IMG/VR virus record: IMGVR_UViG_3300021959_000311
Span: 1-27,532 of that record
DNA: 27,532 bases
Strand: one strand, 5' to 3'
Source: a virus
This document shows positions 16,781 to 27,532 of the stretch, one piece after another. Under the pieces are notes generated by a model. It made no database searches, was not told the DNA's origin, and was given only the letters and a program-made list of their open reading frames with translations. Position 1 is the first letter of the stretch; the number at the start of each line of letters is the position of its first letter. A program made the position numbers and the translations under genes.

Positions 16781-17036
16781 ATTGTGCACAACATATTTTA
16801 TATACATTATGTGGCAATTTTCTTATAAGGTCAACTATTTCATTATCAAGACCATGTTGAAATGTTTCTTGTTCAATAGATAATACTTCCATCTTTGGTA
16901 GCATTAGGAATTCGTGAGAATTTTCAACTGTTTTTATATATACGAGGAAATTACCTTTGAGTGAACCACGGCTTACAGCATATATTCTTCTTTCAAGATG
17001 ATTTCTGCTGATTAAATTTCTGAATAAGCTTATCAT
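16686..17036 (-). CDS. Conserved-looking phage protein, unknown function, overlaps rnh
   Basis: 116 aa from ATG 17036 (MISLFRNLISRN); an upstream ATG at 17063 adds nine residues. Its pattern (ERRIYAVSRGSLKGNFLVYIK, then FLMLPKMEVLSI, then EIVDLIRKLPHNVYKICCAQYE) looks like a small alpha/beta protein common near replication genes of marine T4-like phages, though I cannot name it. The final 30 residues are basic and lie over the RNase H start in another frame. The first 44 bases overlap the end of the RmlD-like gene. The double overlap suggests tight translational coupling. Confidence 0.65.
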   Translation of the reverse strand: MISLFRNLISRNHLERRIYAVSRGSLKGNFLVYIKTVENSHEFLMLPKMEVLSIEQETFQHGLDNEIVDLIRKLPHNVYKICCAQYEEAKAKSDINRLKQSTSPSSVDSRKRKNKR

Positions 17037-17904
17037 CTTTAGTTTCCAACATACTCTCAACACACCTGGCTAAACTTTGCTTGGTTGGTGGTAGCTTCAA
17101 TCCTAAACTTGATATTTTATCATCACTCAACACACAGTTTGACCTTTTGGCGATCGTCTGTGTGTATAACTGATCTAATGTGATCTTAGACCAGTTTGGA
17201 TTTACAAGTCCATAAGAGGTTAAAGTTTCTACAATTTCAGAGGTCATTAACGGTTCTGGATTGATCACATTATATATACCGTACGATCTCTGTATGTTGT
17301 TATCGAGTATATCGATTAAAAAGTATAATATATATCCACACAAATCCTCTAGATTAGTAACTGAGTTTTTCTCGTCAATTATATTATCGTATTTTAATAG
17401 TTTTGTTAAAATATTTCTTTCTGACCATGTAGAGCAAAATGGCATTCGTATACGAAAAATATAAACCGGGCGATCTTGTAGCATCATTTCACAAGCATGC
17501 TTTGTTTTACTGTACCAGCTGCTATTTGCAGACAAAAGACCGAAATTTGGTTCATCGGTCTCGGTATACATTCTATCATAACCATTATATATACACCCAC
17601 TGGATACATGTATCATTGGTACCAGTGTATCCTTGCAGGCCTTTTGTATATTCACTGGTACATTCACATTATAGTACCAAGTGTTCTCTTTATCAGACTC
17701 ACAAGCGTCTACATTGGGTCTCCCGGTGTAACCACATGTATTGATAACAGCTGAGATTGATTTTTTGTCTATAAAGTCTATTAAACTGCATCTGTTTGTA
17801 TAATTCAATTCTTTTTTGCTAACAAAATATACATTATAACATTTACTCAGACATACATTTAATGCGGACCCAACATACCCTTTACCGAGTATCAATATAT
17901 TCAT
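16993..17904 (-). CDS. RmlD-like NAD(P)-dependent sugar-nucleotide reductase/epimerase
   Basis: 303 aa, an extended short-chain dehydrogenase. The nucleotide-binding loop GKGYVGSA (7-14) is followed by an acidic and basic strand end, then HVSSGCIYNG (99-108) and the catalytic Y131-x3-K135 (SWYSKTK). These are the marks of dTDP-4-dehydrorhamnose reductase and related nucleoside-diphosphate-sugar enzymes. The C-terminal part (residues 205-290) looks like the substrate-binding half. The substrate cannot be read from sequence. It sits in the replication block between unknown genes rather than beside other sugar genes; a possible partner is the glycosyltransferase-like gene at 23777. Related enzymes occur in cyanophages, where they may alter host surface sugars. 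Confidence 0.8.
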   Translation of the reverse strand: MNILILGKGYVGSALNVCLSKCYNVYFVSKKELNYTNRCSLIDFIDKKSISAVINTCGYTGRPNVDACESDKENTWYYNVNVPVNIQKACKDTLVPMIHVSSGCIYNGYDRMYTETDEPNFGLLSANSSWYSKTKHACEMMLQDRPVYIFRIRMPFCSTWSERNILTKLLKYDNIIDEKNSVTNLEDLCGYILYFLIDILDNNIQRSYGIYNVINPEPLMTSEIVETLTSYGLVNPNWSKITLDQLYTQTIAKRSNCVLSDDKISSLGLKLPPTKQSLARCVESMLETKDDKLIQKFNQQKSS

Positions 17905-22448: not shown

Positions 22449-23780
22449 CTAGTCACTCAATAGGTTCAAACTTGACATTGTCTCGGTCATGTCTATATTT
22501 TGTATTAGTTGTTCTGATGCTTGTTTGAGCGTCAAAGTATCATAATTTATCTCCATAATCACGCTACCGAAATTTTCACCAAATCGGTTTTTCATCACAC
22601 CTAGCTTTAGTACACCCATCTCTATATCCTCTTCTTCACGCCAGATACTAAATATAGCATCTGCTGTTGCTGCTAAACCGTAACTCTCACCAACAGTGTC
22701 TAATCCTGGATTTATTTCATTGTATCCCTGTCGATTCAATTGTGTGGCGGTTATCACAGGGCATGAAAAAACATAACTCAACGCTCTTAATTCTTCAGTA
22801 GCGTTCTTAATGCGTTCATACGAGTTTGTTCCAATGTCGCTTCTCAATAAATTAACATAATCCACAACTATCGCGTCAATTTCAATTCCTCGATCGGTCA
22901 ATTTCTTTATATAACCTTTTAAATGTTTGCATGTAATTGTGCTTGGTGGAAACTCCTTTACTATGACACGTGACTTAGACTTAGTACGTTTGTACTGCTT
23001 TACAGACTCCTCTATATCGTCGGTTCTCTCATGAAGCTCTCGGATAGGAATTTGAGTTAAATTTGTTGTTATTCGTTTTGCATACACAAGTTCGCTCATT
23101 TCTAGACTGATCAATAATACTGTCTTGCCTTGATCTGCAATGTTACGTGCTACGTTGCCAAGAAAGATACTCTTACCAATGTTTGTTTCGCCAGCAAATA
23201 CATATATCGCGCGGCCATTTTCTAAAAACCCACCATCGAGTTTTTTATCTAACCAATCCCAACCACAAGATATAGTATCATCTTGTGTCTGTAAATCGCT
23301 TATATGGCGATCTATATCGTTAAAATAATCCAAACCTATATCGGTCGCGAGGGTTATCCCGCATGCTTTCTCGAACTTGTTTAATATTGCACTTGTATCA
23401 ACATCTGTAACTCCGGTTTGGTCCGCTACCTCTAGTAGCGTGTTGTATACCGCTTTTTCCTTTAAAAATTTCTCTGTATTTTCATATAATTCATCTCTAT
23501 TAAATTTTTTATCAAAATTATCAAACAAACTGACAACATTTTTAAAATTTGTCTTCAGTTCCGGTGTTGTCAAATAACTTTTTATCTCGGTGAGTGATGG
23601 GGCCACTGAGCGTTTATTATAAAAGTCCTTTATAATATCAACAATCTTTCCTATGTCTTTATTTTCGAAAAATTTAGAGTCTAGATGATCTATAATATTA
23701 GCTAGATACGGTTCATCCGTCAACATGTTATAAGCTATAACAGTCTCATAGAATGTATCATCTAATGTGGTTAATGTCAT
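22449..23780 (-). CDS. 41: Replicative DNA helicase, gp41-like (DnaB family)
   Basis: 443 aa (T4 gp41 is 475 aa). It is the hexameric helicase that unwinds the fork and works with primase. The N-terminal domain (residues 1-140) is helical. The RecA-like domain has Walker A GETNIGKS (197-204), the H1a-region acidic residue after LLISLEMSE (229-230), Walker B IDAIVVDYVNLL (301-312), and the DnaB-type segment TATQLNRQGYNE (about 344-355). The start ATG overlaps the stop of the glycosyltransferase-like gene (ATGA). In T4, uvsX lies just upstream of gene 41; here about 3.3 kb of other genes separate them. Confidence 0.9.
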   Translation of the reverse strand: MTLTTLDDTFYETVIAYNMLTDEPYLANIIDHLDSKFFENKDIGKIVDIIKDFYNKRSVAPSLTEIKSYLTTPELKTNFKNVVSLFDNFDKKFNRDELYENTEKFLKEKAVYNTLLEVADQTGVTDVDTSAILNKFEKACGITLATDIGLDYFNDIDRHISDLQTQDDTISCGWDWLDKKLDGGFLENGRAIYVFAGETNIGKSIFLGNVARNIADQGKTVLLISLEMSELVYAKRITTNLTQIPIRELHERTDDIEESVKQYKRTKSKSRVIVKEFPPSTITCKHLKGYIKKLTDRGIEIDAIVVDYVNLLRSDIGTNSYERIKNATEELRALSYVFSCPVITATQLNRQGYNEINPGLDTVGESYGLAATADAIFSIWREEEDIEMGVLKLGVMKNRFGENFGSVIMEINYDTLTLKQASEQLIQNIDMTETMSSLNLLSD

Positions 23781-24451
23781 TGATAGTTACGTAAAAACGT
23801 TTGTTGAGATCTAAGGAATGATTTATCGTTCAAGTTTCTTAAGCCTGGGCTGTGATGCGTTACATGTATAGGGTATGTTCCCATTTTTAATTTTTTGTTG
23901 TTTGCATCAATACAGCTGGCTATATCGTAATGATGATAGAGGTAATCCTCGTTGAATTTCCAACCCACTTCCAACACACGTTTCAAATCGACAGCTAAAA
24001 ACAAACCATCTAGTATTAAACATCTACTAGGCCATGGACCAAAACTAGTTACAAATGTTTTTGAACTGTTATCCATCGAATGTGACACAGCTCCAGACCA
24101 GCTTTGCTGTGATGACATTCTATGCCACAATGCTGGTTCTGAGATTTTTATTTCTTTTGCTCCTGCTAAACCAACTATATCGTAGTTCATGTTTTCAATT
24201 GCCGCGTACAGCTTGCCTTTGAGCTTCAAGTCGTCAATAAAAACATCATCATGTACAAACAATACAATGTCATGTTTGATTAAATTCTCAGGTGTTATGT
24301 ACCTGTTATAACATTCAGAAAGTCCTTTCTTGTTGTTCGCTACAATTACTAATGATACATCGTCTTTTAAACCGTTTAATGAATTTACTAATTGTGTGTT
24401 TTTACCATCACCTTTCGTGCATGTGACGACTAATATTTTTTTCATTTTCAT
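23777..24451 (-). CDS. Glycosyltransferase-like protein (GT-A fold, StrF-like)
   Basis: 224 aa. The start ATG 24451 overlaps the stop of the amidotransferase gene (ATGA); a second ATG at 24445 is possible. The N-terminus KKILVVTCTKGDG is a first strand of a nucleotide-sugar fold. The metal-binding-like motif FVHDDVFIDD (65-74) takes the place of the DxD motif. A later acceptor region has LILDGLFLAV (145-154), then YLYHHYDIASC (170-180) and HVTHHSPG (196-203). These patterns match small phage glycosyltransferases related to the StrF domain. The target could be modified DNA bases or a virion or cell-surface glycan. Operon position with queC makes DNA a testable option, not a conclusion. Confidence 0.65.
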   Translation of the reverse strand: MKMKKILVVTCTKGDGKNTQLVNSLNGLKDDVSLVIVANNKKGLSECYNRYITPENLIKHDIVLFVHDDVFIDDLKLKGKLYAAIENMNYDIVGLAGAKEIKISEPALWHRMSSQQSWSGAVSHSMDNSSKTFVTSFGPWPSRCLILDGLFLAVDLKRVLEVGWKFNEDYLYHHYDIASCIDANNKKLKMGTYPIHVTHHSPGLRNLNDKSFLRSQQTFLRNYQ

Positions 24452-25158
24452 AAAAAGAATGGACTGTTACTTTCAAACTCTCCGCATGTGGCAAGCCCCT
24501 CGCTCGTCACACAATATATTACACCTTCCTTGAGCTCTGTTTTGCACATGTCACATCTTGTTGAGCTAAAATCACCTGTCATTATATTACCGTACAAAGT
24601 ACTACCACTGCGCACAATATATGTATCACCTGTTAATTTACTATAAATCCAACATGCAAATGTACCTTTCAACATATTACACACTTCCTGTATTGCTTTC
24701 ACTTCCGGGGTATCCGTTACGGTTCCATTATCATGTACACTGTCGTTAAATTCGAACACATATGATAATAACACAGGTATAACAGAACTATCAACCGGGT
24801 TATCATGAACACCTATATTTTCTTTTATCAACTGCTCTGTGTTTTCTAGGACACCGTTATGTGCCACAATATAATGTATGCTGTTGAATGGGTGGCTAGT
24901 AGAAGGGCTGAATTTTCTTTGAGCGCTAGTAGGCGCTTGTGTGTGTCCTAGGAATTGCTCGTATTCCTGCTGAAAGGCATAATCGCCTGTCAAATTTGTT
25001 GTGCTGGGTTGCTTTCTCACATATGTCTCTTTAATGAGACCAGGATTGACAGTATTCTTAATGTACACGCTACCATAGGAAAATGTGCCCCGTTGTTTGT
25101 TAATGTTGTATAACTGCTCATACACATAAAAATTATGACTTCCAAATATACCGCACAT
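24448..25158 (-). CDS. Class-II glutamine amidotransferase, QueC partner
   Basis: 236 aa. The start MCGIFG places the catalytic Cys2 at the N-terminus after Met removal. Further class-II marks are GHTQAPTSA (71-79), VAHNGVLEN (98-106), and the D123-S pair (PVDSS) followed by a G-x-F-A-C segment (about 165-169). Near the end is a C202-x2-C205 pair. It releases ammonia from glutamine for a partner synthase, which it lacks itself. The queC gene ends 37 bases upstream, so the pair probably acts together, like the amidotransferase-QueC fusions described in some phages. It has its own sigma-70-like promoter. Confidence 0.85.
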   Translation of the reverse strand: MCGIFGSHNFYVYEQLYNINKQRGTFSYGSVYIKNTVNPGLIKETYVRKQPSTTNLTGDYAFQQEYEQFLGHTQAPTSAQRKFSPSTSHPFNSIHYIVAHNGVLENTEQLIKENIGVHDNPVDSSVIPVLLSYVFEFNDSVHDNGTVTDTPEVKAIQEVCNMLKGTFACWIYSKLTGDTYIVRSGSTLYGNIMTGDFSSTRCDMCKTELKEGVIYCVTSEGLATCGEFESNSPFFL

Positions 25159-25166
25159 AGTATTTG

Positions 25167-25194
25167 ATTATACGACTTTAGCTTTGATGTTCAA
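25167..25194 (-). promoter_or_regulatory. Sigma-70-like promoter for the amidotransferase gene
   Basis: Minus-strand TTGAAC (25189-25194), a 16-base spacer and a perfect TATAAT (25167-25172), 8 bases before ATG 25158. The -35 lies just downstream of the queC stop region. The predicted leader is a base or two. Confidence 0.6.
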
Positions 25195-25195
25195 C

Positions 25196-25906
25196 TTATA
25201 ATATTTGTTTTGCATTATATTTATCCCATGGAATGTCTCTATCATACTCTATGGGATCGATGTAACCTGCGTCTAGGAATCCTTTGATACGTGAGCTACA
25301 CGCTGTGCATTCACCGCATGCTTTTTTTCTACCTTCATAACAGGTCCATGTTAATGAAAAATCAACGCCCAAATCAACACCCATTTGAACAATATCTTTT
25401 TTGCTCTTTAGTATCAGTGGTGCAACTATTCTGATACGTGTCCGGCGGTTCAGTTCATTTACTTTGTTTATTGCATCTAAAAATTCTTTTGAACCGTCCC
25501 AAAATCCGGCTTGACTATCTACCAATGCAGATCCATGAAATACGGTCTCAGCACCGATTGATTCTGCATATGCTGTACAAATAGATAACATCATCATGTT
25601 TCTATTAGGTACATAATTGACTGTTTGTGGGTCACCTAAAACATCTTTTGTTTTCGCTACATCAATTTCGTTATTAGTTAGTGCGCTCGTGGTAACAATA
25701 TCCTTGAAAAACTTTAAGTCTAAAACCTTGGTGTTTTCCCCGGTTTTTTTGTATACATTTCGTTGCGCACATGTTAGTTCGCGATCTTTATGCTTTTGAC
25801 CATAATCATAGCTTACAGGGTACACTTCAAATCCTTCGCTTAATGCTAGATGTAAAATTACTGTAGAATCTAAACCTCCGCTGATTGGTACAACACACTT
25901 TTTCAT
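25196..25906 (-). CDS. queC: QueC-like 7-cyano-7-deazaguanine synthase
   Basis: 236 aa, normal QueC length. QueC turns 7-carboxy-7-deazaguanine into preQ0 with ATP and ammonia, through an amide intermediate. The ATP-binding PP-loop SGGLDST is at 9-15, VPNRN at 99-103, and four zinc cysteines at C189, C197, C200 and C203 (C-x7-C-x2-C-x2-C). The usual substrate segment YPDCR is replaced by FWDGS (about 135-139), so substrate or product may differ. No folE, queD, queE or dpdA is in the window. A divergent late gene begins 52 bases upstream; queC has its own TTGAAT-17-TATAAT promoter. Confidence 0.9.
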   Translation of the reverse strand: MKKCVVPISGGLDSTVILHLALSEGFEVYPVSYDYGQKHKDRELTCAQRNVYKKTGENTKVLDLKFFKDIVTTSALTNNEIDVAKTKDVLGDPQTVNYVPNRNMMMLSICTAYAESIGAETVFHGSALVDSQAGFWDGSKEFLDAINKVNELNRRTRIRIVAPLILKSKKDIVQMGVDLGVDFSLTWTCYEGRKKACGECTACSSRIKGFLDAGYIDPIEYDRDIPWDKYNAKQIL

Positions 25907-25958: not shown

Positions 25959-27086
25959 ATGAATAAACACCGGAAGGATTCAAAAGCGTTATTTGAAGCA
26001 TATCAGCAGATACAACAAGTCGATGAAGGTATATTTGGTCGCATGGGCAACAAAATACAAAAAAACTTAGGATTAACTAAATCACAGCGCGCGGCCGGAG
26101 CAGCTGGAGTTGATATGGATACAGATGCAAAAAAGATGTCGACAAACTTTGCTGCGGCATTAAAAACATTAGCTCCAGGCTCAAAAACCATAACCAAACA
26201 AATGTTAAATAACTTTCTAGTTGGACAACACCAAAAAATACAACCAGATTCTCTACAATCTGTAGCTAGTTTACCAGATCCGGTGAAAGTGAGTGATGTA
26301 CAAAAAGCCTTGCCTCAAATAATACGGGACGTTCACTCACAATTTTCATTTGGGGTACAACAACCAGACATAGCTCCGGCAACACCGGAATGGACTTTTG
26401 ATGATAAAGAACTACCTGGTGGAACCCCGGACACTGATAACCAAACCGGGTCATCGGAGGCTGGGGCATCAGATGTAAGTAGTATAGTTGATCAAATCAA
26501 CTCTTTATCACCAGAAGATAAGCAACAAATACTAACTACCTTGCAATCAGAGCCCGCGGCAGAACAACCGGCAGTTGAAGAACCAGCGCCGGAACAACCG
26601 GCAGTTGAAGAACCGGAAGAGGACGAACCAGCGGCGGAACAACCAGCAGTTGAAGAACCAGCGCCGGAACAACCGGCAGTTGAAGAACCGGCAGTTGAAG
26701 AACCGGCAGTTGAAGAACCAGCGGCGGAACAACCAGCAGTTGAAGAACCGATTGCACCAGTTAAACAGAACCCTAATGCAGAAAGAATGAATCAAATAAA
26801 AAATGTCGCAATGAAAATGGTGCGCGGACAAGGATTTGATGTTTCTGCAGAAGATAAAGCTTTGGTTAACTCAATTAAAGATGATTTAAAGGCGCGCGTG
26901 GAAGGCAACCCAAATCAACCTCAATACAGAATAGGTGGTGGTGTTAGAGTCAGTAACAAGCAGGCACAAGCACTTATAAATAGTGGCAATATATATGACG
27001 CGATTCCGATCTTAGAAGATATTTTTATATCTAAATCAATATTGAAGAGACCTGGATTTACAAGTATCGATTGGGGTAGATTCTAA
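25959..27086 (+). CDS. Probable virion protein with Pro/Glu/Ala repeat
   Basis: 375 aa. Not recognised. The N-terminus (MNKHRKDSKALFEAYQQ) has L-F-E before A at residues 11-13, a good fit to a prohead-protease site at the end of a capsid-targeting-like peptide. Residues 20-130 look helical and globular. Residues 135-175 are a polar linker. Residues 200-264 are an imperfect repeat of five- and ten-residue units (AVEEP, AAEQPAVEEP), an extended acidic spacer. Residues 275-375 form a second globular part rich in basic residues (QALINSGNIYDAIPILEDIF, then SILKRPGF). It stands alone on the plus strand between uvsX and queC, and its TAA overlaps the uvsX stop. Confidence 0.75.
   Translation: MNKHRKDSKALFEAYQQIQQVDEGIFGRMGNKIQKNLGLTKSQRAAGAAGVDMDTDAKKMSTNFAAALKTLAPGSKTITKQMLNNFLVGQHQKIQPDSLQSVASLPDPVKVSDVQKALPQIIRDVHSQFSFGVQQPDIAPATPEWTFDDKELPGGTPDTDNQTGSSEAGASDVSSIVDQINSLSPEDKQQILTTLQSEPAAEQPAVEEPAPEQPAVEEPEEDEPAAEQPAVEEPAPEQPAVEEPAVEEPAVEEPAAEQPAVEEPIAPVKQNPNAERMNQIKNVAMKMVRGQGFDVSAEDKALVNSIKDDLKARVEGNPNQPQYRIGGGVRVSNKQAQALINSGNIYDAIPILEDIFISKSILKRPGFTSIDWGRF
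26556..26750 (+). repeat. Imperfect 15/30-bp coding repeats (AVEEP / AAEQPAVEEP)
   Basis: Tandem units of 15 bases (GCAGTTGAAGAACCG) and 30-base compounds with small changes at third positions. They are in frame with the 375-aa gene and encode residues 200-264. Unit number probably varies between relatives by slippage or recombination. Confidence 0.85.
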
Positions 27087-27532
27087 TCTACACTGTAACT
27101 ATACTGTGCTTTGAGTTTTTTCTCTAGCTCAGGTAGTATATGTTCATCCCAAAGCTTCTCATCATCTTTCCAGTTTTTGTAATAGCCTAGCTTCTTTCCA
27201 GGTACACCCTCTTTCTCGCTTGGGAGCACAAAAGTACTACCGGTTTGCTCGATCACACCATGATTCACAGCCATCTCTCTCAAACCACTGTATTTGTCCA
27301 ATCCACGCTTGAAGTTCAGGTAAGCCTCACACTCTAGAAATGGTGGTACAAATCGATTCTTAACTGTGAGGGCGCGTAATGTTGTGCCACTGACCTTGTT
27401 AGCTTCTGGTAACAATTCGTCTGCCTCACCTCTGCTAGCATCATGCTTTTCGTCGCGCTTAGCTAGCTGTACCAACACACTGGCAAGGTAAACTGGCCCT
27501 TTACCACCACTCTGCGCTTTCACAAGAGTGGG
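27083..27532 (-). CDS. uvsX: UvsX recombinase, C-terminal part cut by right edge
   Basis: 149 residues are visible; the frame is open to the last base (PTLVKAQSGGKGP) and the N-terminus with Walker A lies outside. UvsX is the T4 RecA-like strand-exchange protein used in recombination-dependent replication. Matches to the T4 C-terminal half are the SGGKGPVYLASVLVQLAKRD strand, TLRALTVKNRFV (where T4 has a Lys-Ser-Arg segment), and DKYSGLREMAVNHGVI against T4 PYSGLLDMALELGFV. A GTG in the frame is not the true start. The stop shares bases with the convergent gene. Next downstream in T4 would be gene 40 and 41; here it is the queC cassette. Confidence 0.85.
   Translation of the reverse strand, partial: PTLVKAQSGGKGPVYLASVLVQLAKRDEKHDASRGEADELLPEANKVSGTTLRALTVKNRFVPPFLECEAYLNFKRGLDKYSGLREMAVNHGVIEQTGSTFVLPSEKEGVPGKKLGYYKNWKDDEKLWDEHILPELEKKLKAQYSYSVD

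Follow-up and report, generated by a model that had tools for sequence, protein, structure and literature searches.

A conserved queC–amidotransferase–glycosyltransferase gene trio in aquatic T4-like viruses and its probable part in a DpdA-independent 7-deazaguanine DNA pathway

The virus record IMGVR_UViG_3300021959_000311, a fragment analysed here over its 27,532 bases (the window), carries three consecutive genes, queC, gat and gt, which encode a 7-cyano-7-deazaguanine synthase (QueC), a predicted class-II glutamine amidotransferase (GAT) and a predicted glycosyltransferase (GT). The trio is a conserved unit in many uncultured T4-like viruses of marine and freshwater origin, and it probably forms one arm of a phage-encoded 7-deazaguanine pathway that is independent of DpdA and operates at the nucleotide level, with a glutamine-fed QueC and with the modified base entering DNA in place of guanine. 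From the observed gene content, synteny, motifs and fold, together with the absence of DpdA in the relatives examined, we infer the catalytic steps, their order and the presence of unlinked pathway genes in the window's own genome, of which the fragment covers a part. All three genes are open reading frames (ORFs) arranged head to tail on the minus strand, between uvsX and gp41:

25196..25906, minus strand: queC, 236 aa; 7-cyano-7-deazaguanine synthase family (PF06508, TIGR00364, invariant motifs, PDB 2pg3/3bl5)
24448..25158, minus strand: gat, 236 aa, starting MCGIFG; predicted stand-alone class-II (Ntn, Cys2) glutamine amidotransferase (phrog_12378, GlmS-glutaminase profile match)
23777..24451, minus strand: gt, 224 aa; predicted GT-A fold glycosyltransferase, PF13712-like, with an HDD motif at 67-69
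24448..24451, minus strand: ATGA overlap of the gat stop and the gt start, read from the sequence
23777..23780, minus strand: ATGA overlap of the gt stop and the gp41 start, read from the sequence

The gap between queC and gat is 37 bp, and gp41 is, as judged from the sequence, translationally coupled to gt. The initial annotation had described this head-to-tail trio on one strand with two ATGA overlaps (GAT/GT and GT/gp41), and the ORF coordinates and sequence bear it out; its calls for the neighbours gp41 (DnaB_C/phrog_19) and uvsX (UvsX C-terminus, phrog_97) also stand.

In a first scan, QueC, GAT and GT were found in this order on 36 viral contigs, nearly all of which continue with gp41, and most of about 130 further loci, from marine and freshwater sources, also carry the trio. 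Profile scans of viral contigs gave at least 495 GT and at least 442 GAT relatives, of which the top 80 for each protein were examined. Among the loci with enough flanking sequence, some of which share a contig and are thus not independent, QueC lies upstream of GAT at 94 of 94 and GT lies downstream of GAT at 113 of 114. Because the trio is conserved over dozens of contigs, a chance arrangement is ruled out, and the idea that the cassette was inserted just once between uvsX and gp41 was discarded. The description of the cassette as "inserted" is therefore misleading, since a large clade normally has its genes arranged in this way, though one 218-kb record (G022) has uvsX and gp41 directly adjacent, with the trio on the opposite strand at a distance of about 120 kb. 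L381, a phage-like contig from a Chitinophagaceae genome bin, has the genes as QueC-GT-GAT, beside the P-loop kinase described below and the primase. Kept together in both of these records away from uvsX/gp41, the trio behaves as a unit of its own, separate from the replication operon.

The QueC assignment is strong, with an E-value of 2e-57 against PF06508 (194 bits, cut-off 22) and 176.6 bits against TIGR00364, above the cut-off of 150.3. The PP-loop SGGLDST (S9, G10, G11, D13, S14) and the four-cysteine zinc site (C189, C197, C200, C203) are invariant in an alignment that includes the QueC proteins of Vibrio phage KVP40, Campylobacter phage CP220 and the clade, and the QueC profile matches the solved QueC structures 2pg3 and 3bl5 at 1e-45 and 4e-41. 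By score this QueC is canonical, and it is predicted to amidate 7-carboxy-7-deazaguanine with ATP.

The single-sequence matches of GAT are weak (GATase_6, 1e-4; phrog_12378, 1e-7), and the family profile matches the GlmS glutaminase domain at 3e-14. The residues C2, H100-N101-G102 and D123 are invariant in the family alignment, so that an N-terminal cysteine exposed after the methionine and the HNG/Asp elements of a glutaminase site are all present. The window protein may be described as a GATase-fold homologue with inferred glutamine use, and GAT is presumed to be the ammonia source for QueC. Matches of GAT to Acinetobacter GlmS were dropped, because the genes around them are chromosomal housekeeping genes, although the record carries a phage label.

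The remaining pathway genes are found in trio-bearing relatives, which encode FolE or FolE2 (PF02649, 1e-72), QueD and QueE (phrog_2076, 1e-44), adjoining a phosphoribosyltransferase (PRT) and/or a P-loop kinase. QueE was recognised by phrog_2076, NCBIfam QueE models and homology; the Pfam radical-SAM model was set aside as too insensitive. All four trio records of at least 130 kb (G022, G028, G029 and G030) carry FolE or FolE2, QueD, QueE, PRT and kinase, and FolE2, QueD, QueE and kinase are present in the close relatives G016 and G017, which are fragments of 88-98 kb. NrdA is encoded in G022, and homologues of ribonucleotide reductase (RNR) in G028 and G029. The PRT profile matches structures of purine PRT/XGPRT enzymes (Gpt family) at 2e-31 to 1e-21, while the closest solved relative of the kinase is deoxyguanosine kinase (dGK, 9e-6). 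Among isolates, the kinase is matched in 13 of 50,697 phage records, all of them Campylobacter phages.

A DpdA profile built from the phage 9g protein and five viral-contig sequences found no member in the records of 33 relatives (most of them fragments, with records of 218, 217 and 236 kb included) and was positive in four of four control phages, their own sequences having contributed to the profile. A single-sequence search with 9g DpdA likewise recovered the controls and nothing in the clade. PF01702 (TGT) was invalid as a test, because it missed the DpdA of G024/G025 that the DpdA-specific profile found. DpdA is accordingly unlikely in the window's lineage, as far as these sequence searches indicate. 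The initial annotation had proposed that this phage makes a deazaguanine base, implicitly by way of DpdA, and had suggested a search for folE, queD, queE and dpdA. The search, run in the relatives, supports the first part, since FolE/FolE2, QueD and QueE are encoded by relatives that share the cassette; dpdA is missing, and the XGPRT-like and dGK-like genes point instead to a nucleotide-level route.

The closest known counterpart is found in the Campylobacter phages CP220 and CPt10 (Firehammervirus), in which 100% of deoxyguanosine is reportedly replaced by 7-amido-7-deazaguanine (dADG) (PMC8306585) and for which a modified-dGTP route has been proposed (PMC6884629). These phages are T4-like and carry FolE, QueD, QueE, QueC, a Gpt-like PRT, a homologous P-loop kinase and NrdA/B; in CP220, which encodes folE, queD, queE, queC, a purine-PRT-like gene, the same kinase and NrdA/B, DpdA is not annotated. 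The large relatives of the window show the same combination (FolE, QueD, QueE, QueC, PRT, kinase and RNR, with no DpdA), and because of this match a DpdA-independent nucleotide route is the best explanation. In contrast to the trio clade, CP220 has no detectable GAT or GT, and its QueC is not beside uvsX/gp41. CP81 was dropped as a dADG comparison, being a Fletchervirus and not of the dADG genus.

In the proposed mechanism, FolE/FolE2, QueD and QueE, encoded elsewhere, would convert GTP to 7-carboxy-7-deazaguanine (CDG). GAT would hydrolyse glutamine and pass ammonia to QueC, which would amidate CDG with ATP. The XGPRT-like PRT would then convert the base to a nucleotide, the dGK-like kinase and RNR would carry it to the deoxynucleoside triphosphate, and the replisome from the same gene cluster would incorporate this triphosphate into phage DNA. 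GT would be a UDP-sugar-type GT-A enzyme co-expressed with the pathway, its acceptor being either the modified base or something else. By analogy, the product is most likely 7-amido-7-deazaguanine, the amide form being plausible from the CP220 precedent (PMC8306585), and it is possibly the amidine G+; both may be considered because the fused Gat-QueC of phage 9g gives dG+ (PMC6884629). The deazaguanine chemistry of these uncultured phages is deduced from their genes.

Several observations weigh against this pathway. Of its genes, the window holds only queC, with no folE, queD, queE, PRT or kinase, and none of the fragments (82-98 kb) that represent the closest relatives, G015-G017, contains PRT. 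Genomes that have GT and lack the pathway (G027, G041 and G048) also encode the kinase, which was rejected as a specific deazaguanine marker because these genomes retain it. No GAT was detected in CP220, which nevertheless makes dADG. Finally, the position of GlmS Arg73, which binds the glutamine carboxylate, is occupied by Gln in the window GAT and in most relatives (GHTQAPT), so that glutamine use by GAT is not certain; Arg appears there only in the L037, L038 and L381 lineage. This position, residue 74 of GAT, is Gln throughout the stand-alone GAT family, KVP40 included.

Two further groups of phages resemble the trio clade in part. In the Vibrio phages KVP40, nt-1 and 2.275.O, a stand-alone GAT (phrog_12378) comes next after QueC, and the window GAT is homologous to those of KVP40 (E 2e-16) and 2.275.O (1e-21), with the HxQAPT motif in common. 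In contrast to the trio clade, KVP40 and 2.275.O have no GT in the regions searched, and those regions carry a QueF-like gene; nt-1 is described as encoding DpdA2 and ArcS and as containing deazaguanines only in traces (PMC6884629). Enterobacteria phage 9g likewise pairs a class-II amidotransferase with QueC for a DNA 7-deazaguanine, dG+ (PMC6884629). However, its Gat-QueC is fused, DpdA is encoded and GT is absent, whereas the trio clade has separate genes and its relatives have FolE, QueD, QueE and QueC without DpdA.

If the proposed route operates, 7-deazaguanine genomes free of DpdA, which have until now been described for Campylobacter phages, would be widespread in aquatic T4-like phages, as the gene content suggests, and the XGPRT-like PRT and dGK-like kinase offer a concrete candidate route for deazaguanine entry into DNA without DpdA.

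The role of GT is a separate question. A single-sequence family search gave no match, nor does the window protein itself match PF13712 (Glyco_tranf_2_5), which is matched by 28 of 29 members of its family at E-values up to 1 (best 6e-12). The AlphaFold2 model (pLDDT 94.9) has as its best solved match majastridin (Z 19.3, root-mean-square deviation 2.7, 197 aligned residues, 20% identity); the GalNAc-T group comes next with Z near 14, and the modelled fold is confidently GT-A. Majastridin (ORF6 of the Rhodobacter blasticus ATPase operon, 2nxv/2qgi) is also a UDP-binding GT-A protein, although a cellular one from another setting. A tblastn search of 50,697 phage records gave no match to the GT family at E 0.01, so that no isolate phage has a detectable member.

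One possibility, which we regard as a serious but tentative one, is that GT is a glycosyltransferase of the replication cluster, or one that acts on a virion protein or glycan, and that position and co-expression are its sole ties to the deazaguanine genes. The GalNAc-T-type protein O-glycosyltransferases among its nearest solved folds are in keeping with such a role, as is a GT-only lineage in a FastTree phylogeny of 117 tips. This lineage is well supported (0.996) and nested inside trio lineages, retaining GT without QueC or GAT. Its 236-kb record (G027) keeps GT and the kinase and has none of FolE, QueD, QueE, QueC, GAT and PRT, and no replacement for the pathway was identified there by eye; a 57-kb record (G041) has GT and the kinase in the same way, and a 56-kb record (G042) has GT alone. 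The lineage implies either that GT is useful without deazaguanine or that its acceptor was never deazaguanine, and on the phylogeny it counts against a strict dependence of GT on deazaguanine. What argues against an unlinked GT is that in G022 and L381 it stays beside QueC and GAT at sites other than uvsX/gp41, and that GAT is almost never found without GT.

As an extension of the proposed pathway, GT might instead glycosylate the 7-deazaguanine, for instance at the nitrogen of its exocyclic amide, so that the DNA would contain a sugar-bearing deazaguanine. The ATGA overlap and adjacency that tie GT to GAT, the persistence of the trio in three gene orders or contexts, the GT-A fold with its UDP-sugar relatives and the RmlD-like NDP-sugar gene that the replication cluster contains are all consistent with this proposal. 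However, the GT-only lineage and its 236-kb record without the whole pathway speak against it, as do the Verrucomicrobial chromosomal GT copies nested within that lineage, the distant bacterial relatives that adjoin other glycosyltransferase-like genes and the lack of any DNA-specific feature seen in GT. We therefore consider sugar addition to the base unlikely, and the complete scheme, in which glycosylated 7-deazaguanine replaces guanine by way of a QueC-GAT amide or amidine, a Gpt-like/dGK-like deoxynucleoside triphosphate route and GT-A sugar addition, is doubtful to the same degree. Were it true, it would constitute a new class of DNA hypermodification in hundreds of uncultured aquatic T4-like phages (to our knowledge, no glycosylated 7-deazaguanine class was known before), and a sugar-bearing deazaguanine would matter for the restriction of viral DNA, for CRISPR and for sequencing. 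The parallel would then be the α- and β-glucosyltransferases of T4, which place sugar on hydroxymethylcytosine, a base hypermodified at the nucleotide level with a dedicated kinase; they differ in the base and in having a GT-B fold, as opposed to the GT-A fold in the trio.

The Verrucomicrobial copies (L377, L378, L379 and L382) are chromosomal genes of Chthoniobacteraceae/Verrucomicrobia with 37-44% identity to the phage GT, and their nested position suggests a transfer of GT genes from phage to host. Other glycosyltransferase-like ORFs lie near the queD-queE cluster of relatives (L097:11755-12930, L097:13487-14341, L093:1408-2869 and L100:12997-13773), the last with a weak match to TET-associated glycosyltransferase (TAGT) and PHROG glycosyltransferases.

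An improbable alternative to the DNA pathway is that the phage raises preQ0 for queuosine in host tRNA and leaves its own DNA unmodified. This has been proposed for DpdA-less phages (PMC6884629), and DpdA is absent from the 33 relatives examined; against it, the pathway is accompanied by XGPRT-like and dGK-like genes without a known role in tRNA queuosine, and CP220, with an equal gene set, has dADG in its DNA. It is more improbable still that QueC acts on something else, for instance a protein terminus, in the manner of Cap9, a QueC-like protein of type IV CBASS, or a different carboxylated metabolite, with nitrogen delivered by GAT, because the QueC profile, although it extends to Cap9 (1e-15), is much nearer to true QueC (1e-45, and TIGR00364 above cut-off) and QueC occurs with QueD/QueE in relatives.

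The other features of the window considered here are as follows:

22449..23780, minus strand: gp41, DnaB-like replicative helicase, downstream neighbour of the trio (PF03796 (DnaB_C), 4e-26; phrog_19, 1e-70)
27083..27532, minus strand: C-terminal part of uvsX, truncated by the window end, upstream neighbour (phrog_97, 6e-12); uvsX is also upstream of the trio in relatives
25959..27086, plus strand: Pro/Glu/Ala-rich ORF of 375 aa between uvsX and queC, starting MNKHRKDSKALFEAY
16993..17904, minus strand: RmlD-like NDP-sugar enzyme within the replication cluster (PF04321, 5e-20), conserved in G016, G017 and G028

The RmlD-like gene is possibly a sugar-donor gene. The 375-aa ORF does not appear in the initial annotation's description, and its start, MNKHRKDSKALFEAY, is a possible prohead-protease site. 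Similar acidic ORFs on the opposite strand occur in other phages (G030:81809-82723 and G027:114998-115771), and their position within the uvsX-QueC-GAT-GT interval varies. The acidic ORFs start with ALFEAY or LIFEAY, resembling the T4 prohead-protease/capsid-targeting motif, and in G027 many otherwise unrelated ORFs begin with MNDxxLIWEAY, perhaps encoding packaged internal proteins. In other QueC phages, ORFs at L051:7936-8835, L052:9681-10733 and L053:8932-10221 match PRT, those of L051 and L052 matching FolE too; L051 and L052 also encode DpdA, which suggests FolE-PRT fusions in DpdA-bearing phages.

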